Assembly: GCA_034509925.1 (NCBI GenBank)
Contig: CM067534.1
Span: forward strand, 7,783,501-7,847,500
Source of the DNA: Hirudinaria manillensis
Lineage: Eukaryota > Annelida > Clitellata > Hirudinida > Hirudinidae
Direction: 5' to 3'
DNA: 64,000 nucleotides
Each line of letters starts with the position of its first letter. Positions within the stretch are counted from its first letter, which is position 1. The notes below the pieces were generated by a model, which saw only the letters and a program-made list of their open reading frames with translations, was not told the DNA's origin and made no database searches. Positions 1,584 to 62,561 of this stretch are shown one piece after another. The position numbers and the translations under genes are program-made.

Positions 1584-2840
1584 CTAGCAGCCAATTTCGG
1601 CCAAAGTTTCGGGACTTTCTGCTCTGAGGAAGGCCACGGAGTTGGCGATTCTGCTCATCAGAGGTCGAAACTTGTCTTCGCCCATGACGGGCTCCCAGAG
1701 GGCGGCGAGTTTTTCCTCGACGAATTTGTCGTTCTCTTCCAAAAGTTCGTCTTCCGCCAGATGAAGGGTGAGGACGATGGCTACTCGCCTGTACGGGGCC
1801 TGTTCGTTGTCGCAGAACCGGTAAAACATCATGGCCGCCTCGGCCGCCAGGGACTCCAGGTGCTCGACCACGGCCACTTTCTTGCCCTCCTCAAAGCCCT
1901 TTTCGAGATCCCCGTCCAACCTCATTTTCACTCTGTCAGCTCTGACGTCCTGGTAAACCAGGCCATTGAAGTGAACGACATCGCTCTCCTTCTGATCAAA
2001 AAGTCTGGCGACTGTAGCTTCATACTTGCGCAGGAAACATCTGCCGCTCGCCGCAGCCTCCTTCGGGACGACCAATAGAATCACGGCAGGATCTCTGGGT
2101 TCGACTTCACTGATGATCGACATCGTAGCAGATCCAGTGATCGTCCAGAACCTCTGTGGCTGATTCTTAAAACTCTTCTGCAATTTCATCCAACTGATGG
2201 CAAACTTGGCCTCAGGGATACCATCCTGATGAGGACTTGGGTTTCTTCCCACCATCCAAATCATCAAACAAAAGATGATGATTGCTGTTATCACTCCACT
2301 AATGATACCTACAATGGATGAATATGAAGATGTGCTGCTCCCTTTCTTATGCTCAGTTTGTTCAATGTAATGTGAGCTGCAACGAACATTGTTCAAGTCG
2401 TTGTGATCTGGTGATGTCTTCTGGCAATCTCTAATTCCCCTTCTGGTGAGACTCGATCCTCTTGAACTACTTCCAGGCGAATTTAAAATTTCCACACGTT
2501 TATAGTATTCGTCGTATTCAAGTTTTATTGACTCTTGAGTTATTTGTTTTTCACCCTTGATTTCTGGAGAACGACCTCTGTCAAGATTTTTCCTTTGTTT
2601 CAACTTTGGTGATCCTTTTGGTGAAGTTTCACTAAGTGATTTCATAGGGCTCTGAAACTTACTTGGAGAAAGGATAGAACATTTGGAAACTTCATCGGGT
2701 GGCAATTCTTCACTTTCTGAATCAGTGAATTCTTCTTTTCCAATATCAAAATGATCATCGACCCCCTTATGGTCTCTAAAGCTTAAGCTGGTATCTTTTC
2801 CCTGTGGACGACTGGAAGGGGATAGAGACCTCTCAGACAT
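1584..2840 (-). CDS. TOR1AIP: LAP1-type torsin-1A-interacting protein (torsin ATPase activator)
   Basis: Single coding exon of 418 codons starting at ATG 2840 (MSERSLSPSS). Residues 1 to about 170 are charged, Ser/Pro-rich and probably nucleoplasmic. One transmembrane segment (IVGIISGVITAIIIFCLMIW) sits near residues 175-198, and the rest is the perinuclear-space domain. That domain matches LAP1/LULL1: PAVILLVVPKEA, a KVAVVEHLESLAAEAAMMFY block, YRFCDNEQAPYRRVAIVLTL, and LMSRIANSV, where the Arg sits in the position of the known arginine finger that activates torsin. A cysteine closes the protein (EIGC). From family knowledge, the product anchors in the inner nuclear or ER membrane and switches on torsin ATPase. 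A 5' UTR intron is visible: donor ACAG|GTTTGA just below 2916 and an acceptor a few bases before the ATG. It is transcribed away from the TASOR-like gene, probably from a shared promoter. Confidence 0.85.
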   Translation of the reverse strand: MSERSLSPSSRPQGKDTSLSFRDHKGVDDHFDIGKEEFTDSESEELPPDEVSKCSILSPSKFQSPMKSLSETSPKGSPKLKQRKNLDRGRSPEIKGEKQITQESIKLEYDEYYKRVEILNSPGSSSRGSSLTRRGIRDCQKTSPDHNDLNNVRCSSHYIEQTEHKKGSSTSSYSSIVGIISGVITAIIIFCLMIWMVGRNPSPHQDGIPEAKFAISWMKLQKSFKNQPQRFWTITGSATMSIISEVEPRDPAVILLVVPKEAAASGRCFLRKYEATVARLFDQKESDVVHFNGLVYQDVRADRVKMRLDGDLEKGFEEGKKVAVVEHLESLAAEAAMMFYRFCDNEQAPYRRVAIVLTLHLAEDELLEENDKFVEEKLAALWEPVMGEDKFRPLMSRIANSVAFLRAESPETLAEIGC

Positions 2841-2915
2841 TTTCAAGTCTACTATGGAGAAAAAAACAATGCATGTTAAATTTGTCCATGTTGAAAATAT
2901 AAATAGAGTTCAAAC

Positions 2916-7768: not shown

Positions 7769-11066
<3,298 letters not shown>

Positions 11067-11608: not shown

Positions 11609-16364
<4,756 letters not shown>

Positions 16365-16904
16365 CTTTAACATGATGCTACCAATTGATTCATAATAAAT
16401 TTATTGACTGTCTTATCACTGGCTTCTCAATGACTGTAAAGTTTGAGAAATAACGTACTTTTTTCGTTACGGTTCTCTGAAATCGCTTATTTTGTTAAAG
16501 TACTGAGTTTATTTGGCTGCCATTAAACCACGAGAGCACAGCCCTTTTTTTGTTTGATGAGGCGTCGTTAGAATGGTGGGGTGTGTACGTTTCTGGACCA
16601 CTTCGGTGAAGTCGGGATTTTTCCGATTGTCAAATCACAACAAAGCTTATGATTTTCGGTTTGAGAGTTGTGTGTTTTGCTACTCATTTTGTGAAGCGCT
16701 CCTAAGACTTTTACGTTAGGATTTGTGTTCCGTAAAGTAAATTTATGGCGAGCTGCAAAATTATTATATTCGTAGGCAAGGATTTTGTAGAGCCCCATCA
16801 TTAAGATCGAGTCGGCGATTTAAGCCGTGTTTTTAATTAAATGATTAACAATTAACGAAATTTATTGGGAGAACAAATGGGCTTGATCTTGTCCCTAATA
16901 TTAG
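16365..16904. other. Intergenic between convergent M2 and gene A
   Basis: M2 polyadenylation signal AATAAA at 16394-16399 (+) and gene A signal AATAAA at 16866-16861 (-) face each other. Nothing else is seen. Confidence 0.6.
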
Positions 16905-19900
16905 TTAACTATCCACATCACTGTCGTCGCTATCATCACCTAGACTATTTTCTATGCAAAACCCTCGACTAACCGCGCTGTTTTCCTCGTAAGCTGGGTA
17001 ATCGTCGAAGGTATTTATGCTATAGCCTTTGTTATTCACAGCAAAGTATAAATCTTCCTCTTCTGCCTAGAGAATATAAAATTTTATTTATTTTCGAGGA
17101 GTTCGAAGGACCGAAGATGTTAATATCATTAGTAATTATTAATGAATTGATATCGTATCTGCATTTTTATTAATTTGCAGATCAAACTCCACCTTTGTTA
17201 TCTTAACATTTTTTAAAACCTTTATGAAGTTTTCCAGGTGACATCCATGGTCATATGACAGGAACAGAAATGGACTGTGAAAGCATAGGTTTGCAAAAAA
17301 TTTAAATTAATATTTTGTAAAATTACACTTTTTTTGGTATTGATTTTGTTGTAATTTCTCACCATTTCTTAAACAAATATTGATACCACCATCGAGTTGT
17401 ACCTCTCAGTGATGGATCTCTTAAAATGTCAGTGAAGAATTTTTTGAATGGGGATGAATGTGGTCTGAACTCTTCTGTTATACATGTTGTGTCGAATACT
17501 TTTGACTGTAATTTTATAAATCATGAATGATTTAAAGTGTTGTTTATATTATCAGTCTATTTAACTAACCTCATATGCATCATCGTATATTAAATAGGCA
17601 GTGTGTAATGCATCCATTGTCTTTACGTATATGATAAAGTCTCTAAAATAAAACATCTTTGAAAGTGAGTGCTGAGGCTCATTGACTAAGAGAGTATTAG
17701 TAACTGGGAAATATTTTTCCATTAGTTTTTGAGTTTTTTTTCTGAATTGTAAATAGGCCGAGCATTTCTCTCCTATTGTTAAATAAGGTTGGTCACTGAA
17801 TGACTCATAAACTCTTTCCATCACCTCCAATTCTATTTTTGACAAAGTCGAGCTTGCCTTTTTTATGCAAAAAATCAACAAAGACATTAAAATTAATAAT
17901 AATGGTAATATTGTTATTATTATTATTACTGTTAATATTATTATTAATTAGTGGGTAATATTGTTCTTCCAAAATTAGAATTACTTTCAAGTGCCACTGC
18001 TAGTTCAGTTAAAAGACTTACATGTTGTATGAACGTAATGGAATTCAGAAATTGGTTGAAAATCCTTCTCAAAAGTGGCATGTTTTCATCTGTGTCTCCC
18101 TCTTCCGTGCACGTCTGGAGGATGTAGAAGAGGTCCCCGACTCTTTCGAGTCTCCTTTTTTCGGTGTACAGGAAAAAGTAAGACAAATTTTCAAAGTAAA
18201 ATGGAGTCTGGAGCTCGCCCATAACGGCGAGGCATTTCATTATGAAGCGAATGAATTTGACTGTACAATGTTCCTAGGAATAAATAATTTGGTCTCATTA
18301 ACTATTTGTGTTAAGTTCACGTGTTCATTTATAAGCACAATATATTATATGTTGTATTTATGTTTTGGGGATTTTACCGGCTTCAAAGGGTAGTAAGTTC
18401 TTATGTACTCCAACATTAGGGCAACTGGGCTACATTTATTAGTAGGTTTTAAGTTTGGAAATTCCATGTTAGCTAGGTCCAATTTATTTAAAACTGCTTT
18501 CACTGTTGGAAAGAATCAACATTTACAAACACGAAATTATAAATTGACTAATGAGTGTAATATTTGTTAAATATCACCAATAAATTTAATTATTTTATCA
18601 TAATTGTTTGTGTTAAGGATTATTACTTTGTTTGGAAAGCCATAAAATAACGTCATTTGTCCGTGCATCAGTGGAAGTAGAAATAGGTATTCTATTCATC
18701 CATATAAATTGTGGAGTGACTGTAATTATTAATTTAAAATTTAGTTTAAATTTTATTACTAAAAAATAGTTTTATTATTAATGATGAACAAAATATTTCA
18801 CTGGATTAACATATAATTTTGTGTTAGGATTGAAAGATTATGGGGTGATAATAACAATTATTGCAACATGTTATCATTACACTCCTGTTGATTTTTATCC
18901 TTATGATTAACATATTCTTTAACATATTAATTTAAATTAATCCATAATACCATCTAAGATCTTCTGCTCTATTTGCTCTTGAACCAACATTAAATGGTTG
19001 TCTAATGCTACCGAAAGGATCTTGATAGCAATCTCCATGTTCAAAAAATGGTGCATTCGGTAATGTATTAATAAATACACAACACTGGAAAAAGATTTTT
19101 TAAAATTATCTTATTAAGTAATACATTATAAAAGTAGCAGTGACCAAATTAAATCGAGTAGCTATAAGCAGAATAAATTGGTAAAATATTGCATTAAACA
19201 TACGTAATAATGTCTGTTTCCTCGAAAGCATTTATATCTCTGAATGTCTTTTCTGGTGAATTTTCAATCAGTTGTAGAAATGCCATGTCTACCATGCGGC
19301 TCAGACCACGTGCCTAGTTTGATATTTTCATTATTGTTATCATTGTTATTATTGTTAATATTTTGAAAATGTATTTTGCCGTTATTTACCGCATATATGT
19401 ATAAGTTGTAGTAACAATGAAAGCCATTCTCTATGAGGTAAGCAATTGTTTCTTCTGAACCAATTTCTAAACATATAAATTGATGAATGAGTTTTACTTA
19501 AAAATTGACTAATAACTAATAATTCATGGCTATTGGTAAATATGTCATGTGTACAAAATGTTCCACGTACTAGTTCCAGAAACATCTTTGCAATTCTCCT
19601 CGCGGTACCAGGTGTTGTCAACTTCAAAAAGCGATTCATTCTTTATTCTTGGTAAGAGGGAACTGAAATTATGTAAAGTTGCTAATAATTATTATTACAT
19701 ATTTATAATATTAATATTTCATAAGATATAAACCAATTATAAATCAAGATTAAATGTTACATTATTTTCCTGTTGAGATTTTAATAATATCTATTTTAAT
19801 CTATTAATTTAATCTATTTTAATAATATTTTTAATAATATCTACATTTAAAGTCGATAGTGTTTTTTACAACTATTATTATTTGTGCAAAATTAAATTGT

Positions 19901-20301
19901 TATTTTAAATATCAATGAAAACATTTCTTAATTATTAATGTACTGATGTACAAATACATGATGTTGAGTCAAACCTTAAATCTGTTGCACATTGTATAAA
20001 TCTCTGATGTGCTTCTTTCTGTAAAGGTTTGTAACCAACTATCCACAGCGTGCGATCCTATAGAATTTAATTAAAAATTTATGTAATTTCATTCAAAATC
20101 AATAAACGTTTTAATTCTTACTCTTCGTTTTGACCAATATTGTTTACTTATGTCATTCAACGTGTCAATTATGTCCTGAGGATCTGTGATCAATTGAAAG
20201 TGGTTAAGGATGTTTACTGGACCAATGCTTAGTTAAATGCCACACAATTTTACTAAAAACTCACTAGGTATGTTAGTCTCCATAGTCTTATTGAAATTCA
20301 T
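16905..20301 (-). CDS. Gene A: unrecognised helical protein with acidic tail, tandem copy 1
   Basis: Eleven exons from the minus strand: 20301-20265, 20183-20122, 20057-19975, 19647-19571, 19466-19390, 19313-19204, 19084-18951, 18502-18378, 18273-18022, 17857-17570, 17066-16905. They close to 468 residues. I do not recognise the family. Reading order: IIDTLNDISKQYWSKRR, then DNTWYREENCKDVSGT, IGSEETIAYLIENGFHCYY, GLSRMVDMAFLQLIENSPEK, KAVLNKLDLANMEF, MGELQTPFYFENLSYFFLY, MDALHTAYLIYDD, AEEEDLYFAVNN, and an acidic end DDSDDSDVDS. It looks all-alpha (HEAT/ARM-like spacing is possible) without signal peptide or membrane segment. Every intron position and phase is shared with gene B, and differences are mostly whole-codon, so both appear under coding constraint. 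Poly(A) signal 16866-16861. ATG 20301 is the only start in the first exon frame; ATG 20283 is an internal alternative. Confidence 0.72.
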
Positions 20302-20953
20302 ACACAATTAAACTCTTAATGATGGTTGATCTCCATTATGAATTCTAACTTGGAAACAGAAGATTTAAATAGATTGTGAATTTTGAAATTTTATTGCTGA
20401 TTGTTTTATGATTTTATATCTTCATATTTTAACTCAAACTCAATCATCATTACACATCTAAGGACATATGCATTTCTATAAGGATTGATATTGTATTGGG
20501 ACCCAGAGTTTTTACATGGTGCCCTTTATGTTTTCTGGGAATTTTATTGATCCCGGGTCAGAATTGGTGATGATCGACCTCCTGTCTTTTCCAAGTCCAT
20601 GGGCCAATGGGCCTTCGACAGAACTTTGATGGGGCACCATAGATTGTTTGGGCAGTGGAAAACATGAGTTAACCCTGAACAATGGAGAAGATGAGAGCAG
20701 CAATGTAAGAATGAAACAACTTATGTATTGACATTTATAATCAGGATTTCAGTTGTTTTAGTCCGTGATATGTGAATATAAACAAATATAAAACACAGCT
20801 AACAACAATAAATGTTCTTGAATTTTTCATGCTAAATAACATTTTATAGAACCCCATGGTGAAGATCAAGTTGACAGTTTAAAACATTGCATTTAATCAA
20901 TTAATGGCATTTATTGTGAGAAAAAATGGGCTTGATTTTATTACTGATATTGG
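20302..20953. other. Gene A upstream region and gene B 3' end
   Basis: Gene B has AATAAA at 20915-20910, about 40 bases beyond its stop, matching the arrangement of gene A. A block at about 20500-20700 resembles the block upstream of gene B at about 25340-25430 (both contain GGGAATTTT followed by a GTCAGAATTGGT or GTCGGAATTGGT core), so the duplicated unit seems to include promoter-side DNA. Confidence 0.45.
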
Positions 20954-24990
<4,037 letters not shown>

Positions 24991-27655
24991 TTAGATTCTT
25001 AATGATGGTTGAACTCCAATATGAGTTCTAACTTGGAAATAGAAGATTTAAATAGAGTTTTAATTTTGGAATTTTATTATACATTGGTTTATGATTTTTT
25101 ATATTCATATTTTAAATGTATTGTCTGTAACTCAGTCCCATCCATCATAAGGACATATGCATTAGTCTATGGGTTCTACATTGCAGCTGCAAAAAACAGA
25201 TGGTTTTTGTGTGGGGAGCCAGAGGTTTAATGAGATCAGATCAGTTAATGACCTGGTCTTCCCTTGTGTATAACCTCACTGGCCCACTCCTTTCCCAAGC
25301 CAAAATCCATTGATCTGGGATAGATTGGTAGACCATCTCCAGCTTGCATGTTTCCCTTTTCGGTATGCTTGCGGGGAATTTTGTGCACCTCTGCCTGGTC
25401 GGAATTGGTAATGAAAGCGTCCGGCGACACCGATGTACCATACGTCGGTCGTGAGGTGTTTAGAGTGTGCCCGGAAGAGGTTGCTTCTAGATGCCGACCC
25501 GAGTCCGCTTCTAATCTGGATTTGCGCAATGCAGGCTCCCTCTCCCGCCCCAAGCCAATCGCGTTGCCCTCAACGGGCCTGCCGATGTCGTTGGTCCAGA
25601 AACATGGAACAGACTGGATCCTGCGGTGACGACAGCACCGCCCTGAAGACTTTTCCATTTAGGGAAAACCACCCACGCTCCCCTCAGTGGCTTTGAAGTT
25701 TACCTGGACATACGCCACTATAATCAACTGAATTATTATTATTATTACTATTACAGATAAGGAAAATTTTGGTTGTTTTAGTCTGTCGTGTAAATATAAA
25801 CAAATATAAAATACGTCTAATAATATTAAATATTTTTTATGCCTTTTGAATTTTCATGCTAGACAACATTTAGATATATTTTGTATTTAATTTCTTGGTG
25901 GAGTTCGTTCTCGTTTGTTTATTTACTTTTGTTATCACCCGGCAGGATCGATTATCCTTTGCAATGGCCTCAATGGAAAATGCTGCAGAATAATTCTTAG
26001 TGCTCGGGCAGCGTAGGGATTGGGATTTTACATGTCAGATGCCGATATTTATAACAGTCGGATTTGTTTGAGAATTTTTAAGGAGAATAACTGGATTTTT
26101 TTATGTTTTAAAATCATGAATTGATGTTTTCGGCACATTAATTTTATTTGTATGGTAGGAAGAATTTTACTTTGTTTACTTTTTCATATTATGGCCATGG
26201 GTTTTTCTTAAATGCTAATTTGATGGCCTGCAGTTCAAAAAGGTTACCCCATAGGAGCTGGAGCTTACAGAGTGGTGATCAAAGTTTTAAGAGGAATGTG
26301 TTTTTGAGTGCATCAAGAGTTGTACTATATGGGGGCTAGGGATTGTTCTTGTTTCATAATTAGGGCTATTTATTATACCAATGATTTTTGGATTTATACC
26401 TTTTTAGGTGTTGGATTAGGGCCCTGTCTGGTATGGTTGCAGGAATTTTGATGTTGGATTTTGTTTTAGACTGTCATGGATCCTTGGTGTAGGGATAGTG
26501 GCACCTTGGTAGGGTGCCTACAGACTTAGAGTACATCAAGTTCTTCAGGTTAGGTTTTGTTACTTGTTGGACCACATTGTATGAGAAAAGTGATTGCAAG
26601 ACCATTGCAAGATTTTAGTTTGTCATGAGACAGTCCTTGCTTTGTTGACTAAGAACATTGTTATGATTTAAGAGCTTTCTTTGTGGTTTCCCATAGTTTA
26701 CTGATAGAATTGGCCATTGTATGGTCAAGATTTTGGTCTGATTAAAGTTTTCATAAGTGGATTTTAATCTAAATGAGTATTCATCTCATTGTGTATTTGT
26801 CTGATGAATTGGAATTTAATAAATTTCTTTATTATAATATGTGTTTAAGACAGTTTGTGGAGAACCAAAGGACAACCTGAGAAAGTAATGGAGTGCTGTT
26901 TTCAAAATGTGAATTCAGTTACATTTTAATGTCAGATATTAGTGTTGATAAATATAAGTTGATAATTTGATGAGAGAATATTTGCATTCATAGGAATCAC
27001 TCACTGAACAAAACTGTCGTCTTTCACGTTGTTACCCAACGCTGCAACAATCATGGCCTAATAGTATCATGAGTTTTTATGAAGTTGATTTTTATTTTTT
27101 GGTTTTGTTGGACATTGTTGGTGAGAAACCCCCTTCGTGGCATTTTAGTTTGCGTACTTGGAGTCTGTATTTGTTGTTCAGAGCTCTTATTTGTTATGTG
27201 TATTTGTATTTTGATTGTTTACGAATTGTTTAATTTATTACTCGAATAAAAATATAGAGTGATTTATGAAATGTTTCGTTTCAGGTGTTAAATGTATTTA
27301 TTAAGTTAAAAATATTAAATTAAACGATGCGGGATTTGGAGCGATTGGAAAATAATTTCAAGCGGGGATAATGATTAAAATAATTTGAAAGTAAATAATT
27401 TATGCTTAATTGAAGTAAAATTCATCCGAGGCGTGCGTTGTGCTACGAACCTGCACTTAGCGAACTGTCGCGTACAGCTATTAAGTGCACTCCGGCTGGT
27501 ACATTGGGATGGTGTAGAACGATGGTTTAATTTACATAAATTTTGATTATTCTGCGGTGTGGGAGTGGATTGTTTTTTGTCATTTTCATTTGTAAGCCCG
27601 TATTTGGTTTCAAAATTAAGGTTCGAGTTCTTACTAACTATAAAAGTCGCTTAAA
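24991..27655. other. Intergenic between gene B and M3; possible old repeat at 25340-25690
   Basis: A GC-rich block at about 25340-25690 contrasts with AT-rich flanks and has a partial relative at 20500-20700. It may be part of a transposable-element remnant. The region 25700-27650 contains no gene I can support. The last 250 bases (27400-27650) are GC-richer near 27430-27530 and probably include the M3 promoter. Confidence 0.4.
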
Positions 27656-30600
27656 ATGGATAAAATAGTTTGCCTTACAAATGCGTTCGATTCAAAATAT
27701 TATTGCTCTTATAAATACTGCAAGGAGGGATTTAAAACACTTCATGAAGTTAATTACCACGAATTTATCTACGGGCACAGTAAGTTTTGAAATATATTAA
27801 GTTAAATTATACTTCTGTAAAAATAAACTATTTATTATAATCGAACTATTTTATTAATAGGTTCTATTTTTAAACAATTCTGCATTACTTGTTTGACATT
27901 CTACAGGAGATGCTGAGCACGGAGAGTGGCTATGCCAACTTTGCGATGCAAAGAACGAAACTGCGAGATTTCTGACTAAGCTACAGGCTATGAACCACCT
28001 TCGCTTCACTCACAAGCTTGACACCAATGAAAAGATTTCATCCAAGAAGCCAAAATTCACGACACAAGATGTTGACGTGAGAGTCAAAGCCACTGGCATC
28101 GATTTCGGAAGGACTAATTCCAGTATTTCCATCATGAGGGGTAACGGCCCTACCATCATTGAAGTTGATGGTGAAAGAACAATCCCATCAGCTGTGGCAT
28201 TCGCAAAAGATGAGGTTCTTTTAGGTAAAGAGGCAAAAAGGCAGCTTCTTGAAAACTTCAAAAGTACGTTATGTGCAAGCAAGATGTTGATTGGCACAAA
28301 ATATGAGGATGCTGAAATGCATAAACTCAGGTTTGTGTTCATTTGTTCATGATACTAGGAGATTAATAGGAAAGAAATATGACGATGCTGAAGTTTTTCA
28401 GGATAAGTTAGCAATTAGGCTTTAGTTGTAGATCTTTACTAGGGTTAGGACTAATAATTTGGATGAGAATCCTGTGAATGGATTATGATTTTCAATCATC
28501 CTTTATGGAACTGATATGTTCTGAGCCACAAACTTGACATACAATCAAACATCCAAATTTCAGAAAGAATCTGTCTTATGCCATCGTGAAGGCATCAAAT
28601 GGAGATGCTTGGGTCCAAGCTCAAGGTGTGACATACTCCCCTGCCAAGATTGCTTCTTTGATTCTCAAAATGCTGAAGACATCAGCAGGTTTGTGAATAT
28701 CGTATTAATTTTAATATTATAATCTTACGATGCATTTCCTTAAATTTCTTTCTTGTTTTTTTTAATTCTAGAAGAAATCCTGCACCAACCAATAGAAAAA
28801 GCTCTAATTAGTGTTCCTGCATACTTCAATGGTCATCAGAAAGAGGTCACTTTGCATGCTTTGAATACCAAATGCAAGCAGTATCAAAAGATGCTTGTTG
28901 TTTTGTCAGGCCACCAAGAAAGCAGGTCAATATGCAGGTTTGAACGTCGTTGGAGTCATCGATGATCCCATTGCTGCAGCCCTATCTTATGGTCTCAACC
29001 TGGAGGATGGCATGTTAGTTAGATTGTTGTCGTGAACTTTTTTTGTGGCCTGAGAGTCTTAGAGGGTTTTATTGATTAATCTAACTTAATAAATAAAGTT
29101 TACAACTAAAGCTAAACGAATCTCATAAATAACTCTAAATTTGATTTAATTATTAACTCTTTTAATATCAATAAATTGGTGACTCCATTGATCATTTCAA
29201 TAGAGTTGCAGTCTGCGACTTTGGAACAGTTTTCGAAGTAACGATCCTGGATGTCAAAGATGGTCGCTTTAAGATCAGAGCAACAAGCAGTGACATTCAT
29301 CTCGGAGGAGAGAGCTTCGACGAAGCCCTGCTTGACTTTCTTGTTGACATGATCAAGAAGGAGGTTGAACCTTGACCTTTCTTAAAGGGTTTTTTCTTAA
29401 TGAATATTTTTGGTAATCACCTCAAATGGAATTAAATAGATTGTTTTTCACAGAACTTATTCTCTTATCTAGGCCAGTAGCCTAATAAAATCATGAGTTG
29501 TAGTTAATATTTTTAATCAAGGTGACCGTTGACTTTTATTGAAGAGTTATTTTCGTATGGATTCAGAATGAAATGCTTACAGTCAAAATTATTTTTCTTT
29601 TCTACTAGGCTACTAGTATTAGAATCATCGTTTTTTTTTTATTAATTTCTAAAATTTCAGCACGGAGTCGACGTCTCTAAAGATCCTGAAGCCATCTCGA
29701 GACTGAGGGAAGCCTCGGAGAAGGCCAAGATCGATCTCTCCGGAGCGGACTCTCACGACATGATGCTGCCGTTCCTCTTCATGGCCAACGGAAGCCCTGT
29801 GATCTTTCGCCATACCATTTCCAGGTCAGAATACGAGAGACTCGTCGATCCTCTCATCAAGAAAACCGTCTTCCTCTGCGAGAATTTGATCGGAGACATG
29901 GAGATCAGCGACATTCACAACATTCTCTTAGTTGGCGGGATGGCAAAGATGCCAAAGGTTGCTACCCTTTTTGGAAATTTGAAAAAATCGATTGAAAACA
30001 TGGTCATGTTCGTGGATGGTTATGTTGAACTCGTTGGGTAATTCTAATTGGATTATATTTCGTCGGTGCAGATCCAGCAAATGGTCAGATCAATCTTCGA
30101 TAGGGAGCCGAACCTCAGCGAAAATCCGGAGTTGTGCATAAGTTTGGGAGCGGCCATACAGGTTAGGCCGGATGTCATCTTTAATTAAATTAACTTTTAA
30201 TTCAAAAAACAACTGAATGAAATGATATAATTCTGTTACAGGCCAATATCTTGTTCAATTCGGTCGCAGATCCTGATTCACTTCATGTCGTACCCCTCTC
30301 TCTTGGCATCGCGACTTTCGGAGGAGTCTTCAAAAAGTGTATCAACAGGAATACCACTATTCCAAGCAGGGGAAGCCAGGTTGAACATTGTGTTTTTTTG
30401 ATTGCAATAGTTAATTTAAACAGATCCTTGCTTATGTCAACCAACTCGAATTCATTCCAGGTCTGTTCAACGGAATATGATGGTCAGACTAAGATCGTAC
30501 TAAAGTTGTACGAAGGCGAAAGAATGATGGCAGCTGACAACACATTCCTCAAGGACTTCCAGTTGGTCGGTATAAATGTCTTATTATAATTGGATACGTA

Positions 30601-31744
30601 ATATTTTAATACGTCGGGATATTCCTCATCTTCATTCATCATCAGATTGGAATTCCACCTGCTCCATGGGGTGTGCCGCAGATCGAAGTCACCTTTAACG
30701 TGGTTGCCGAAGGCGAAGCCAAGGTCACTGCACGAGATAAGGGGACTGGAAAGGAGTGGCAGAGTACGTTTGATTAACCTCTTATTACGAATGGAATGGT
30801 TTAATTAATATTCCTAATATTTGCATTCCAGCTTCGGTCAAATTCAGAAAGTCAAGTGACATCAATCAAAACCGGATACAAGACATCGTAAATGCCGCTG
30901 CACTACATGAGGAGGATGATGAAGCCAGGAAGGTAGGTCCACTTGATAATTAAACTATTTATTAATAATAATTGTTTCAATAATTATTTAAAATGGTTTG
31001 GCCAATTCATTTATATAAGGCATTAACTGGGAAGGTTTGCTTTCAATGATGCCTTGTCATTTAGGATCTCGTCGTTGAGGTGAAGACCGTGCTTTCCGAC
31101 ATAGATTCCGAGATGGAAAAATGCAAGGGCCTTTCTACAGAAGAGGTGAGCAAATTTGAAGTGTTTTTGTTCTGGATGTGTCGAGACTTGCTTTGATTTC
31201 TGTGATTTTAAAACTATTAAATGCTGATGTTGTTGAAATGATTTCGTGAATCGACTCAGAGCTTCATACACTGTTGCAGACCGACCGGTTGAAGGAAGAA
31301 ATCACGAGGATCGACGAGATGCTGAACGACGCATACGAAACTGCTGAAAACGTCAGGAATGCCACGGCAGACTTCCAAAAATCTACCTCCCTTCTAATTC
31401 AGTCAGCTCAGAAAAGGTATCTTCATGTCTTTGCATATGTAGGACGATGAGCTAATCAATGAACACAGTGTAGATTGTATGATAAACAGATAAATGACGG
31501 GCAAGACATTTCACGGGCATAAGTCTTATTGATCTCACGTAGATTTCCAGAGTCAGAAAATAGGGTTAGTTTAAGGGTCTGATTGGAACAGGTCCTCAAA
31601 GATCCCTGCTTATGGGCTGCTCAATTGGCTAAGGCCTGTCAATTGTCCAGCAATTGATTGGATGCATGACGTTTGCCTTGTGTTTTCAGATGGCTGCCTA
31701 GAAAGAAGTTGAAGGACCTGGGTAAGATAAGGGCCAGGAGATAA
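27656..31744 (+). CDS. M3: chimeric C2H2 zinc-finger / degenerate mortalin (HSP70-like) protein
   Basis: Fifteen exons: 27656-27779, 27907-28330, 28564-28688, 28772-28845, 28910-29013, 29204-29363, 29661-29957, 30072-30161, 30242-30379, 30461-30565, 30646-30763, 30832-30932, 31065-31145, 31280-31416, 31690-31744. The frame is open for 710 codons. Instead of a mitochondrial leader, exons 1-2 encode two zinc-finger-like motifs. The first is canonical (C-X4-C-X12-H-X5-H in [12 protein letters not shown]...); the second is spaced C-X2-C-X17-H-X4-H (WLCQLC...NHLRFTH). The same second exon runs on into HSP70. ATPase motifs are altered: [25 protein letters not shown], and [10 protein letters not shown] where DLGGGTFD should be. 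The substrate-binding part is better kept ([29 protein letters not shown]). A frame change near 31400 gives a basic end ([17 protein letters not shown]). It is probably not mitochondrial; nuclear is an inference. A decaying gene remains possible. Confidence 0.78.
28357..28408 (+). pseudogene. Relic second copy of a mortalin exon end inside M3 intron 2
   Basis: The intron after 28330 contains GAGATTAATAGGAAAGAAAT and continues through GACGATGCTGAAGTT to AGTTAGCAATTAG. This aligns with the end of M2 exon 3 and its donor (12605-12660), which encode [16 protein letters not shown]. The exon used by M3 just upstream resembles M1 instead. The relic therefore marks the point where M1-like and M2-like sequence were joined. 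It has no usable donor and is probably spliced out with the intron. Confidence 0.75.
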
Positions 31745-32682: not shown

Positions 32683-35600
32683 TTACTTTACTGACCCGAC
32701 CACCCAGTAATCCATCTGCTGTTCCGCATCTTCGGCAGAGCCTCTGAAGTTGAACCTGTTGCACCTGAAGAGGATGCCGTGCTCAAGGACTGCATCTCCG
32801 AACTGATTCTTTAAAGCAATTCGAATGAACAAACACGTGAGAACATATTTCAGGCGTTATTCAAAAGCCTGCGACAAACTGAGCTTAAAAAAAGCGTTTC
32901 TAGTGTTTCACGTAGTTTGTTATTAATTATTTTATTTATTTATTTATTAATTAGTTATAGTTAGTTTATTGGCAGAATAGCAGATCTCTATTCTTATAAT
33001 TGCTAATTGATGGTCAATATGCAATTGAATCCAGACCGGTGATAGAGCGAAGAATTCTTGAATGAGTAGGCAGCTTTCGTTGAACTTCTGCATGACCTCC
33101 GACTGGGTCAGAGATGCCTGGGACATGACCTGCTGTTGTGACGGTGCGACGATGATGCCTCTTGAGGCATCGACGAAAGCGTAGTTGAACACGGTGCTGT
33201 TGTTGCCGCTGTTGATCCTGTTCATTGAACAGTGCTTTGAAAGTATGGACGTTTAAATTGTTCCAGGTTGTAATGAATGCTTGTCTGGAAACACGGCCGC
33301 GTTTTTGAAAAGCCAGAGTAAAAATTAAAGCAGAGCTGATGGTTTTCAGCTGGAATAAAATAATTCCAGGGCCCTAATCCTAACTGGGCAAATTAAATTC
33401 AGCGCTTTCGAGACATTAACGATGATTAATGCATTAATCAATGAAATCATCATTTGATAATTACTTGACGTAGGGTGACCTGATGGAGGGCGGGGGTTGA
33501 GAATAAGATTTTAAAAAGTCAGAGATTTTGTTGAGCTGAAGTTTCTGAAAAAAAAACATCAGCAAATCATCATGCAATTAAATAAATAAATAAATAAATT
33601 TTAATTAAGCAGTCAAGAGAAGGACAGCTAGTTACCGTTGAAGAGGTTTTGTGAATGTTTTCCATGGATGACTGTCGAGTTGGAAAGTCATTTTGACTCC
33701 AGATGTCATCGATGTCTCTCTCGTCATCAAACTCCTCCTCTATGAATCTCTCGTTCTCCTCAAATTGGTTCCTCAAGTACAGATTGCTATCTGATAGAGT
33801 GAGAAATAATGTGAAACTAATCTGATCAAATCTTTATTTATTTTTTAAATTAAAAATTGTATATTTAAAAAAAACATTTGGGAAAAATATTGAATCAATA
33901 TTATTATATTGAATAACAACCCGAAAGTTGTCTGGACAAAGGGCCTCTTGAATTACTGAGGTCAGATTGAGACGAACCAATATTTTGACTCGAGGGGAGG
34001 ACAGCCTTCTGTTCATCTTTGTTCCTCTTGAAAAGCTTTTTAAATTTGTCTGTGATCTTCTCCACGACTTTTGACTTTGGTTTCGTCAGAAACCATTCGA
34101 CATTGGAAATACATGGCCTTCCATTCTTGATGATGCTGCATGGCAGTTGTGGTGTTTTTATGATTTTAAAACAGAGTAAATCAGCATTATGAGTTTGAAA
34201 AATGGCTTGAGAATTTTACATTTTGTAAGTTTTATTTTTATTTATTTAACAAGTCAGTAAATTAAAAGAGCAGGCTTCAACATAATATTTTAAGAATTTT
34301 ATTTCAATGCATTTTGACATTCACCAAATGAATTACAATCGTTCAGCAATTCCGCACTCGAGGCAACTTCAAAACAAAACAAAGTTTCAAGAAATTAAAA
34401 GAAATTCGACTCACAAATCATCCAACAATTCCATCAGGCCTGCAATGGCCATTTGAGCCAATGTGAACTTTAACCTGTTGAGGAGGAAGAGGTCAGCGTA
34501 AGGAACCTGCCCGACGAGGTCGGACGACCTTTCATCGCAGCTGAGAAGGACAACCAGTACAGAGTTGTCCTGAGCAAAAAAGAGCACCGAATACAGTCTT
34601 AGCCGATAACTTTTAACCAATTCAGTCAACTAATTAACAACTTATTAATAACCAATTTATTGACTTCATCTCCGACTACGGATGAACCTGCATATTCACC
34701 ACTGTTAATAATACCTACAATTATACCAACATTTTTGATCTCATTCACCAATGAAGGTCGCAACTCATCAGTCAGTTTCATCAACTAACCCAGCAAACCC
34801 TACACGGACCCATTTCTAGACCCTATCAACCAGACCTGCTCACTTACTCACTCACTTGCTCAACCACTCATCACCTTCCCAATTCTTATCTGAGCCCTTC
34901 CAACCCAACACTCCCTTTGGGTATTCATGACTAACACAGAAAAACTAAGACGCTAAGTCCGAAAAAAGCCAGATCCAGCAATGCCTAAACATTCACATCG
35001 GGAATGTGTCACCAAAACTATCAATCATTCGCCAATATCCAGTTACCACCAGCAAACCCCCATTTTGAACACTCATCCCAACCCCAACATTTACAGAGAC
35101 AATCAACTAATGCATGTTTTCAGTACCAAAACCAAAAAAACAAGACGGAGCAGAAAGCAAACAAGTAAAATTCCATTGGAAACAAAACAAACTGCCATCT
35201 CTGGAGATGAATCGACTCTTAAATTTAAAAAATAACATTTCATGCTTTTCGTGACAAAGGATGAGCAGCAAAGGTTCAGAAAGAAAAAAAAAAGGCGCTG
35301 AAATCAATCAAAATTCCAACGGTCTGCATTTTGAGAAAATCCATCGGTCAGTCTGAGAACAACTGCCATCGATAGAACGACGACTACGACGGCTTCACAA
35401 GAACGTCTTGACTCGACAAAGGACTGCATAGTACAGCTTGGTCAAGTCGGCCTTCGAGGTCTTGTCTATGCCTCTTTCGGCCGTCAGCTTATCGAAGAAG
35501 TCCTTGTCACCGGTCACGATCTCCTTCAGGTTCGTCAGAGTCGGCACCTCTCCGCTCTCGATGAAGTCGCCGAAGAGCTCCTTCAGTCTCTCGACGTGCT

Positions 35601-38600
35601 CGTCGTTCCAGGCCATTCTCCTCTTCTTTCCGTCCTTGGAGTCGAACGACCTGTTCTGAAGAGGAGACTTCTTTTCCTTTTTGCCCGACAGGTTCAGGGA
35701 GGAGCTGAAGACGGGCGAACCGTCCACGGAAAGTCCCGACGTGCCGTCGTCGTAATTTTCCCCGCCGTCTTCCGAGTCGCCGTCGAGATGGAAGTTGACG
35801 TACCTCCTCGGCCTGGCCGAGCGAACGTTCTCCTCGTCGCCTCGAGACTTGCCTCTCGTCACCATGGCGGTTCCTTCCTTCGAGGTCAAGTTCGATGACA
35901 CTTCTGCCGCCAACTCCTTCATGGTCTCGGACGTTATGGATCGACGCAAGTCGTCGTTCTTGAAGGCTTTCGAAAGGATGTCTCGCGACTCGGCAACGGC
36001 CATCTGCAGGCCCTCGGTGGTCGGGAAAACGAACGGACAGGCTGGATGCTGCCTGCCTAGCACTTCTCTGACTTTCAGATAGGCAGCAAAGAGGGGCACG
36101 AGCTCGCCTCCTACCACCAGCCTTACTGAAGTCTTGCCATCGGGAATGGCATAGTAGAACAGGCCGTCAGATTCGGTGCTGGTCAGCAGAGAAGACATGA
36201 CGAAGTTTTTCAAAACACGAGGATTGATGGCATTCTCGACGCTCATTCTCACGATCATGTGGTCCCTGAAAGTCGTGAAAGAAGTCATCCAATCCGTCTC
36301 TAAATTGCTGGTATCGGCCTTGTCCGCGAACTTTCTCATCTCATCTTCGAGATCCTTGACCTCGTCTGACTGGAGGTAGTCCAAATAGTATTGCGATATG
36401 GGCAGCTCAGACGATCTCTTTCTCTTTCTGCCCCGCTTTCTGATCCCTCTCTCCTCGGACAACTCATCACCAGCAAAAGAAACCCTCTTTTCCTGCTTGC
36501 AAGTTTTCTCCTCCTTCTCTGCCGCTTCCACGTAGATTGGAAGTGAACAATCGATCCAAGTCTTCAAACATCTGGCAGTATCTGGAAATCTCAGTGCCAG
36601 GAATTTGGAAAATTGATTAAATGTCTCCAGATTCGACAAAACTTGTGAGGGCCTCCTAAGCTTTTGATAACATTCTCCGAGCAACTTGTCGAAGTAAAAC
36701 TTAATGTCATTGTCATTTTCAAAATCCTTCACATTCTCAAATTTCATCTCCTTTAAAAGTTGTCTAATATGATTCACACTTTGATGAGGATTGCATCCTT
36801 TTGAACAACTGAATTCCATAAAACAGGAAAAATCAGAAAGCAACTCATCATCAATATCTCCTTGGCTTGGAATTGCAATATGCAAAGGACCCATACCATC
36901 TAACTCCATACTGTTTTCATTGCTAGTTTCATTGCTTTTACAAATCTTTCTCCAACCTAGAGATTTATGATTTAAGACACTGGATTTCACCTTCACAGAT
37001 TTCTTTACAGTTTCTGTTAATTGCTTTCCACTCAAGCCATGCTTTGAAGCAAGGTGATGATGCAGTGCCATGAAGCATCCTGCACAAATAGGGCACCGAC
37101 GCTTCTCCACGACATTTGAGGCAGTTGTGAGATGTTGATATTTCAAAAGAAAATGAAGAGAGTTCGACACTTTGTGATATTCCCGAACGTGTAGCGGCAA
37201 ATTCCGCACTTTCTCAGTGCACATAGGACATGGAAATAATATTCGCCTTGCTTTGATCATTTTATCGTCTAAAATAAAAATATCGACCACTTAAAAAAAC
37301 ATCCGAAGAAATAAAGTGTTCGAATCTGAACTAAAAAGTACGCTAACGAGTACTTCGATAGAAACGAAGGAATTTGTCAGACATATTCTCGTAAACCGAA
37401 ATATAAAATAATTTGAAAATCGTACAAAAATAAACAAAGACGCAGTACTAACTATTGTAGTGCGATTCTCCTCTAGAAATGTTATTATAAAACTCCTTAA
37501 ATTATACTCGTATCAGTGGACTTATATCTTCAAACCAGCCACTCAATAATAAACGACTACCAGCAAAGATTAAAAATAAAGCTGTTTTTTTATTGAGGTA
37601 ACAAAATTTTAAAATTATAATAAACAAATTTCTCCACTATAATACGCGATTTAACGGCAGATATAATAATAATAATAATAAAATGTAAACTAGTTTTAGC
37701 GGGCTGACAATAATAATCCACTTCCTCGTCGAATGCTCTCGAAGGTTGGTTAGTTCCATAGGTAGCGTCGACTAACTAGTTATGTTGGAAGCCAACAATT
37801 AACATGCTCCTTGCGGAGAGAATTTAAGTTGCATTTCGCCAGAATAAAGCTAATTATTGCCATAATAAGATAAAGGTAGAGATCGTAATAAACGCTAGCT
37901 GGAGTAATAACTTTGTTTTTGGTCACTTTTTATTAATGGAGAATGAGTGAAAATTTATTTTTGGATGTGGTGACCCGATGGAAAAAAATCCCTTCTGTTA
38001 ATGGGATCTTGTGGTTTGGCCACGGCGGCTTGCTAAAATTCAAATCAGACCAGATTCCCCTCAAATTGACTCAGGATTTTTTGAAGGATAAATTTTAAAT
38101 GTAATAAAGTATAATTTTGTCCCCTAATTATTAATTTTTCTCAGTGATGGGTGCACGAAGCTTTGGATTTTGGCAATGAAAGTTCATTTACGTTTTCTGA
38201 TGATTAATAATAATAATAATAATAATGTCATTTATGTAGCGCCGTGCGCTTGAGCTACAGGAGCGCTGAAATTACTTACTGGAAGTGATGTCAATGAGTC
38301 ATGGAGCACTGCTAGTATCATTTGTAAACAATTTGAAATGCAAAATTACACCAAAAGAAATTCCAATGAACAAGTCGTTACCGGATAATAAGTTGATAAC
38401 AGAATAGCAAAAATTGAAACTCACGGCAGAAAGAGCGAGAACAAAATGCCTGCTATTTGAGGTCTCAAATCGTCTGTAGATGTCAAAGTTTCCTTTGTCC
38501 ATGGAACATCCTTTGGGAAACTTGGACATACTGGACCTGTTCCTAAGGAAGATCTCAGCCCAGAAGTAGAGTTGACCCGTTTGCTCGCCACTGCTGCGAC

Positions 38601-60545: not shown

Positions 60546-61721
60546 ACAAGAGGGGTCAGATGCAGTCGAGCGATCTGATTTGAGAAGCCCCGGGGTCGTT
60601 ATTCGTCAATAAGAATCCGGACACCTGCAAGGTGATGTGACACGTCGTTCCGCATGATTTGTCAGCCGTTAGCCATTACAGAGGTCAAGCTCCGAGGCAA
60701 AAGGTCAAACCGTTCAGTCACGTGCTTTCACGGTTCGGTGAACGTTCAAATGTGCCATTAGTCTTCATCCGGGTTTTTGACTCAGCTAAACAATCGCCTT
60801 TGAAGGTTGTTTATGGCCGTCATTAATAATAATAACAGCAATAAAATAATAATAATAATAATATTTTAAAAAATTATGATGATGATTGTGATGACAAGCA
60901 TCATCATCATCATCAATCACCCAAACCCGTGTTTGATTTTAATCCTTCAGAGTGTTTGAGAAGAAGACGAGAACGGCAATGAGGATGGTGGTGGTGATGA
61001 CGACGACGACGACGATGATGATGATGATGATGATAATGATGACGACGATGCTGTTGACGATGATGTTGAGGCTTTTGACGCAGAAAATAATGAAATGTCA
61101 AAGGCATCCCTGTAGCAGACAGACAGACAGACAGACAGAAAGAAGAGCAAGACATTTAAAAGGTTTAAAAATTTAAATTATTTAATTCGAAACTTAATAA
61201 TTCGTTTGAAATTTTAAAAGTGAGTGAGTGAGTGAGTGAGTGAGTGAGTGAGTGATCGAGTGAAAGAGTAAAGGAGCGAGCGAGCGATAAGAGGAAGGCA
61301 ATCCCCGTGAACAAAGAAGAGTATCAACACGAACTAACACTCCGCACAAAGCTGAACTCCTGTCGCTAGAAATTGGATTCATCGTCTGAGGAGTGGCAAA
61401 TGAGACGCCAACGCGGATTTGGGTTGTTCCGAGGAGGATCGAGTAGTCTCCAATCCCCCCTGAGTGGGTGGGGAGGATCGAGTAGTCTCCTCCCCCTGAG
61501 TGAGTGGGCGTGTGATGGAACGCACGTGAGTGGGTAGACAGCGGCCCGAATGTTAAATTTAAACAAAAAAAAGTGATTTTGAATTGAAATCATTTCACTT
61601 GGTGAAGATTTTGTATGTTTTATTGAAAAACTGTTTCATAAGCGATTTTACCCGAATTTTGACGTGGGCTGAAATGCACACGGATGGATGGAAACGGAAA
61701 TATGGAATAGAGCTTTCCAAG

Positions 61722-61735
61722 AACAGGAAGAAGAA

Positions 61736-61809
<74 letters not shown>

Positions 61810-61891
61810 AGAAGAAGAAGAACAAGAAGAAGAACAAGAAGAAGAAGAAGAAGAAGAAGAAGAAGAAGAAGAAGAAGAAGAAGAAGAAGAA

Positions 61892-61922
<31 letters not shown>

Positions 61923-62108
61923 AAGAAGAAGAAGAAGAAGAAGAAGAAGAAGAAGAAGAAGAAGAAGAAGAAGAAGAAGAAGAAGAAGAAGAAGAAGAAG
62001 AAGAAGAAGAAGAAGAAGAAGAAGAAGAAGAAGAAGAAGAAGAAGAAGAAGAAGAAGAAGAATAAGAAGAAGAAGAGGAGGAGGAGGAGGAGGAGGTGGA
62101 GAAGAAAA
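61722..62108. repeat. (GAA)n purine tract, about 370 bp
   Basis: The plus strand is almost purely purine for about 370 bases, mainly AAG/GAA repeats with a few GAACAAG and AATAAG interruptions and a GGA-rich end at 62075-62095. Open frames here (poly-Lys, poly-Glu, poly-Leu) are artefacts of the repeat. Confidence 0.95.
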
Positions 62109-62561
62109 CATCAAAGCGTTGGTGTCAATTCAATTCCACCACAAGGCTCTAAAAGTGACTGTCGATTATGAATATTTTGTGTCTTTGATGCATTCAAAAG
62201 TTTCAGAACGTGATCTGGGGTAGATCTGGGTAGCTAGGGTTGGGTGGGTAGATACGATCGTATATGACGTGGATACTCGGATAGTGCCAGGACTAGAATG
62301 ACATTTCGGCTCCCATATTCTGACGAGGTCAATCAAGTACAGCTCTCATGGAATTTCTGAAAATTAGCAGAAATGGATAATGGCGCATAAAATGTACATT
62401 GCCGTGCAAATCCATTTGGTTGGAAATGAACACAGTTTGACGCCATTGTTTCCTGCTCGTGACTCACGTGATCTGTGTTTATTTATTTTTTTTTTTAAAT
62501 ATTCTCTCGCGAATAATATTTTGAATCTTCGTTTGTTCTACTCCAGCGTAGGGATTCGTCT

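Follow-up and report, generated by a model that had tools for sequence, protein, structure and literature searches.

A candidate chimeric gene in the leech Hirudinaria manillensis in which a Cys/His head precedes a mosaic body related to mitochondrial HSP70

Exon shuffling and segmental duplication can give rise to chimeric genes. Few proteins of living organisms are as conserved as HSP70; its DLGTT-, DLGGGT- and NEPT-type motifs touch the phosphate loops, and a linker couples its domains. In the present study, we analyzed a window of 64,000 nucleotides of the Hirudinaria manillensis genome (C9:7783501-7847500; genome searched, 148.4 Mb in 23 contigs), which contains two genes for mitochondrial HSP70 (Stress-70, HSPA9, mortalin or Hsc70-5), M1 and M2, and a third gene, M3. 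M3 has the same HSP70 body (residues 104-687) as M1 and M2, shares their exons and has several of the M2 introns, but differs from mitochondrial HSP70 in that it has no leader, carries a head with two Cys/His (C/H) motifs, has altered motifs and an altered linker, and ends in a basic tail. As in known chimeric genes, the head of one gene appears to be combined with the body of another, and relatives of both parents are still present in the genome (the head relative, and M1 and M2); however, no case of a C/H head joined to HSP70 came up in the database and literature searches made. We read M3 as a lineage-specific chimeric gene, a known protein altered by a known kind of event, with a domain architecture not found elsewhere in these searches.

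Modeled with its exon ends matched to those of M1 and M2, M3 consists of 15 exons (27656-31744, forward strand) encoding 710 residues without an internal stop, and all 14 introns are of the GT-AG type (Table 1). Intron 1 is bounded by ACA/gtaagt after 27779 and ctacag/GAG at 27907. In the joined translation of 27656-27779 and 27907-28330, exon 2 is a single open frame from the second motif (HLRFTHKL lies inside the head) into the HSP70 start. PF00012 (HSP70) spans residues 104-687 (E 1.7e-162, score 542.2 against a cut-off of 20.6 bits), so that both the nucleotide-binding and the substrate-binding domain are present in full length. Among solved structures, the best matches carry the name Stress-70 protein, mitochondrial. 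M3 is very probably a fused coding gene. The original prediction, of two C/H motifs encoded by these two exons with the second continuing into HSP70 without a stop, was thus correct in coordinates, motif spacing, frame and splice sites. It had also proposed that the head replaces a mitochondrial leader: M1 and M2 indeed carry two leader exons (starting MLKAAKLS) where the head, encoded by exons 1 and 2, stands in M3, although the origin appears to be more complex than a swap of leaders, with a three-part mosaic and perhaps a co-moved neighbor gene.

Table 1. Position of M3, its parts and its relatives in the window
Feature	Position	Strand	Evidence or relative
M1, 14 exons, leader-bearing mitochondrial HSP70; related to M3 in exon 2	7769..11066	+	gene model, diagnostic sites
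M2, 16 exons, leader-bearing mitochondrial HSP70; related to M3 in exons 3-14 and several introns	11612..16364	+	introns, diagnostic sites
Two tandem copies of the orphan gene, head-to-head with M3	16845-20479 and 20893-25170	-	same arrangement, with an orphan relative, at the other head gene
M3 exon 1, start codon and first C/H motif (C-X4-C-X12-H-X5-H), phase-1 GT donor	27656..27779	+	46-50% identity to exon C9:8847918-8848046 (-)
Head part of M3 exon 2, containing the second C/H motif (C-X2-C-X17-H-X4-H) and a link region	27907..28068	+	pairs with second exon of the other head gene
M3 exon 2, HSP70 part, M1-like, in frame with head	28069..28330	+	diagnostic sites matching M1 30, M2 9, neither 10; PF00012 from residue 104
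M2-like exon 3 end, leftover piece in M3 intron 2	28353..28413	+	83.6% to M2 12598-12658; diagnostic sites M1 2, M2 12
M3 exons 3-14, HSP70 body, M2-like, ATP-site motifs and linker altered	28564..31416	+	diagnostic sites matching M1 46, M2 143, neither 46
M3 exon 15, basic tail ending KIRARR, stop TAA	31690..31744	+	frame shifted one base relative to M1 and M2

The head has a relative in the same genome. When the 98-residue leader was searched against the genome, three matches were obtained, namely its own two exons and C9:8847918-8848037 on the reverse strand (E 4.5e-4, 50% identity); the leader had been expected to trace a donor zinc-finger gene, and it recovered a donor-like relative. The reverse search with the head of this other gene also gave three matches, with M3 exon 1 at E 5.5e-4. 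The other head gene (C9:8847.6-8848.0k (-), L010) lies 1.04 Mb from M3 on the same contig, and its second exon, GAARNGEWTCTIC..., which adjoins the matched exon, matches the second motif of M3; its first exon (MERYFG) is a guess. The Smith-Waterman score between the two heads was 158, against a mean of 27.7 and a maximum of 71 in 3000 shuffles, and that of the exon-2 head part only was 67, against a maximum of 55 in 3000 shuffles. The two heads are 40% identical in protein over 78 aligned codons, with agreement of 51, 71 and 42% at codon positions 1, 2 and 3, respectively. The order of the motifs is common to both genes, and in both the intron of the head splits an Arg codon in phase 1. The two genes differ in what follows: in M3 the head continues into HSP70, in the other gene into tandem copies of a KPGEGAVIPPRGQQAGRGFGVPVQRQ-like repeat, which lie after its second motif at L010 517-1389 (-).

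An exact genome search for sequences coding for GEWxCxxC found 15 places, against four in the reversed control. Two of the 15, M3 and the head gene on C9, carry the head module; the remaining 13 were judged by eye to be either different Cys-rich motifs or open stretches lacking the head. The occurrence of the head in a second gene rules out a chance motif. Neither a mobile element nor a multitude of donors is supported at the sensitivity used, as two protein searches of the genome gave just two heads; weak head matches in the stretch beside the C9 head gene were judged to be noise.

The label zinc finger rests on the spacing of the presumed ligands and its conservation, and zinc binding is putative. 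Each motif has two Cys and two His with finger-like spacing, kept in the one relative. The strongest of the rival explanations, which we consider rather doubtful, holds that the head is real and shared but that its Cys and His serve another fold or form disulphides. In its favor, Pfam gave no zf-C2H2 match for the 98-residue leader at E<=1, but three weak non-C2H2 listings, all under the cut-off; the single-sequence AlphaFold models, of low confidence (mean pLDDT 59 and 72) and in themselves uninformative, contain strands or a long helix and no classical finger; and in the other head gene the eighth ligand, the final His, is displaced by one residue. However, seven of the eight presumed ligands stand in identical columns and the spacing of motif 1 is equal in both heads at about 40% overall identity, which speaks against this reading. 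Elsewhere in the window, a 631-codon open frame (35395-37290, reverse strand) has Cys/His pairs like CPMC...H and CPIC...H in its initial part; it has no Pfam family above the cut-off and no match to the M3 head.

The genes lying head-to-head with M3 belong to an orphan family. The two copies in the window are intron-rich and 78-83% identical in long DNA matches; neither of the two exon pieces scanned matches a Pfam family above the cut-off, and NCBIfam gave no match above the cut-off for four neighbor genes. The other head gene also lies head-to-head with an orphan relative (C9:8853.1-8856.5k), 66-71% identical in DNA matches over 200 bases. Because 31 exon matches to the family occur in the genome, with 15 on C9 and five on C7, nearness of an orphan gene to a head is in itself weak evidence, although the same orientation at the only two head-bearing places strengthens the reading as a neighbor block. 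Thus, because both heads lie head-to-head with one orphan family, the head and its orphan neighbor may have moved as one block. Such a joint move is unproven, since no alignment was obtained across the two places for the spacer separating orphan gene and head, and the 29.7 kb examined at a third close orphan relative (C9:8971k) contain no head.

The HSP70 body has exons, introns and diagnostic sites (positions where M1 and M2 differ) in common with M1 and M2, consistent with descent from mitochondrial HSP70. The parentage of exon 2 differs from that of exons 3-14 (Fisher p 9.4e-10 on the matches; counts in Table 1). For individual exons, the preference for M2 is marked in exons 7, 8 and 14, while exons 4, 6 and 9-11 show a small M2 majority or are uninformative. 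After trimming of the ends, nine of the 13 M2/M3 intron pairs exceed 60% identity (566 of 755 aligned bases, summed over these nine), and the other four are at 46-59%, against 44-49% in shuffles; M3 is therefore mostly a copy of M2. M2 as the sole parent was nevertheless ruled out, because exon 2 is M1-like. Furthermore, the working end of exon 2, just before the leftover piece in intron 2, is M1-like (M1 10 : M2 2), and we read the M2-like piece beside this M1-like end as the join of an M1-like exon to a truncated M2-like copy.

M1 is 65-70% identical to its 40 best among the 120 database matches listed for M3. M1 9877-10564 and M2 14846-15545 are unusually alike, with just five differing sites over the parts matching M3 exons 9-11, which suggests that gene conversion between M1 and M2 is likely over those exons. 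M2 intron 8 seems to start with GC and not GT (14568-14569, AAG/gctgag), and the matching M3 intron starts with GT. An HSP70-like exon cluster at C1:324848-333948, with four matches at 39-40% identity to M3, probably represents other tandem HSP70 genes.

Compared with M1, M2 and human mortalin, M3 has DFGRT in place of DLGTT, DF-GTVFE in place of the DLGGGT-type motif, DDPI in place of NEPT and GGESFD in place of GGEDFD; its linker reads DSLHVVP in place of LLLDVTP, so that the VLLLD consensus is not kept. Some positions are kept, for example the Lys of the M1 ATKRLIG stretch. Because the changed motifs touch the phosphate loops and the coupling linker, a normal ATP cycle is unlikely in M3, and normal chaperone chemistry has probably been lost. 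The original prediction spoke of a chaperone-like body; with its ATP-site motifs and interdomain linker altered, the HSP70 part would not be a normal chaperone.

One possible interpretation of these changes is that M3 is chimeric as described but decaying, being unexpressed or barely used, with an open frame that persists from earlier selection. Besides the altered ATP-site motifs and linker, its faster change points in this direction: branch dN/dS is 0.449 for M3 (dN 0.245, dS 0.546; 593 aligned codons), against 0.042 for M2 and 0.132 for M1, with the caveats that M1/M2 gene conversion is likely and that the mosaic breaks the single tree. A one-base length change, exon 14 being one base shorter than in M2, may be counted on the same side; this shift alters only the end of M3, so that its tail is unlike the KEPEQN- or EEPEQK-type tails of M1 and M2. 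However, the dN/dS of M3 is clearly below 1 (bootstrap 0.33-0.62; none of 1000 replicates reached 1), and that of the M2-M3 pair in the M2-like part alone is 0.372 (0.28-0.48). In neutral simulations from M2, a mean of 9.4 stops (minimum 1; 500 runs) accumulated at 0.2 substitutions per site and a mean of 17.3 (minimum 6) at 0.54, while M3 has none. Furthermore, six of the 12 exons from 3 to 14 are equal in length to those of M2 and five differ by multiples of three. We therefore hold decay to be unlikely; by these measures M3 has been constrained, though far less than M1 and M2.

The splice sites were scored with each modeled site left out in turn. The exon-2 acceptor at 27907 scored 5.7 (median 6.6 and minimum 0.5 among 42 modeled acceptors), and the donor at 27779 scored 3.0 (donor median 7.2, minimum -0.5). 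Two separate mRNAs, one with the head exons and one for the HSP70 body with its own start or leader exon, are quite improbable. An acceptor-like site at 27987 does outscore 27907 (7.8), and the donor is weak. However, exon 2 forms one open frame across the junction; the score at 28069, the expected start of an M1/M2-type exon, is only -1.1 and thus falls under the minimum of the modeled acceptors; splicing of exon 1 to 27987 would omit 80 bases and break the frame; and a tblastn search of 16500-28070 for a leader of the M1/M2 type, which might have supplied the alternative start just before 28070 raised in the original prediction, gave no convincing match (best E 0.038 at 33% identity, restricted to leader residues 16-48).

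Regarding novelty, when residues 1-100 of M3 were searched against a database of 5.8 billion proteins, three candidates shared words and none reached E<=10; the head of the other gene gave one candidate, again none at E<=10. These searches require shared 5-residue words and have length limits, and can therefore overlook remote relatives of the head. With the full-length M3 protein, 5545 of 7998 scored candidates matched, and among the 120 matches listed, no BLAST alignment begins before residue 50, so that none covers motif 1. In the literature, as far as titles, the beginnings of abstracts and open-licence PMC text go, nothing relevant was found for an HSP70 with a zinc-finger head, and the papers listed on mortalin paralogues are, by title and abstract start, general ones. 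Within this sensitivity and these sources, the view that no HSP70 with such a head has been described holds.

We consider the following origin probable. The two-exon head of a zinc-finger-like gene, probably with its head-to-head orphan neighbor, would have been placed beside a duplicate of the tandem of mitochondrial HSP70 genes; the second exon of the head would then have been joined to an M1-like HSP70 exon, and this unit to an M2-like remainder, and through these joins the mitochondrial leader exons would have been lost. Since it has no leader, the 710-residue protein should stay outside mitochondria. It might act as a cytosolic or nuclear binding protein with the shape of HSP70, in which the body no longer runs the normal ATP-driven cycle and the head, perhaps with the basic tail, could provide a new partner or a nuclear place. 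The sequence itself shows the gene structure, the shared head, the mosaic, the constraint and the altered motifs; the order of events, zinc binding, location and function are what we infer. The cytosolic or nuclear destination and the nucleic-acid or protein binding suggested in the original prediction are equally putative. That M3 is a real chimeric gene, formed and working in this manner, seems to us somewhat probable; the mechanism proposed is tentative, and a zinc-finger-guided, ATP-uncoupled HSP70 "pseudo-chaperone", that is, a mitochondrial duplicate brought to another cellular site, perhaps the nucleus, through the capture of a lineage-specific paired zinc-finger head along with its neighbor gene, is more speculative still. 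On the origin proposed here, a mitochondrial copy of this conserved protein would have been freed from the organelle and given a new head, by steps that can be read in one genome: it holds a donor-like gene and two HSP70 relatives, as well as shared introns and the leftover piece of an exon. If expressed, M3 would be a test case of how a chaperone under continued selection can acquire a new location and give up its enzyme cycle.

Outside the HSP70 genes and their neighbors, the window contains a 441-codon open frame at 1584-2909 (reverse strand) with a LAP1_C domain of the torsin activator type (E 4.6e-25), and a long simple repeat of the AAG/AGG type at 61711-62130, which reads as poly-K or poly-R.
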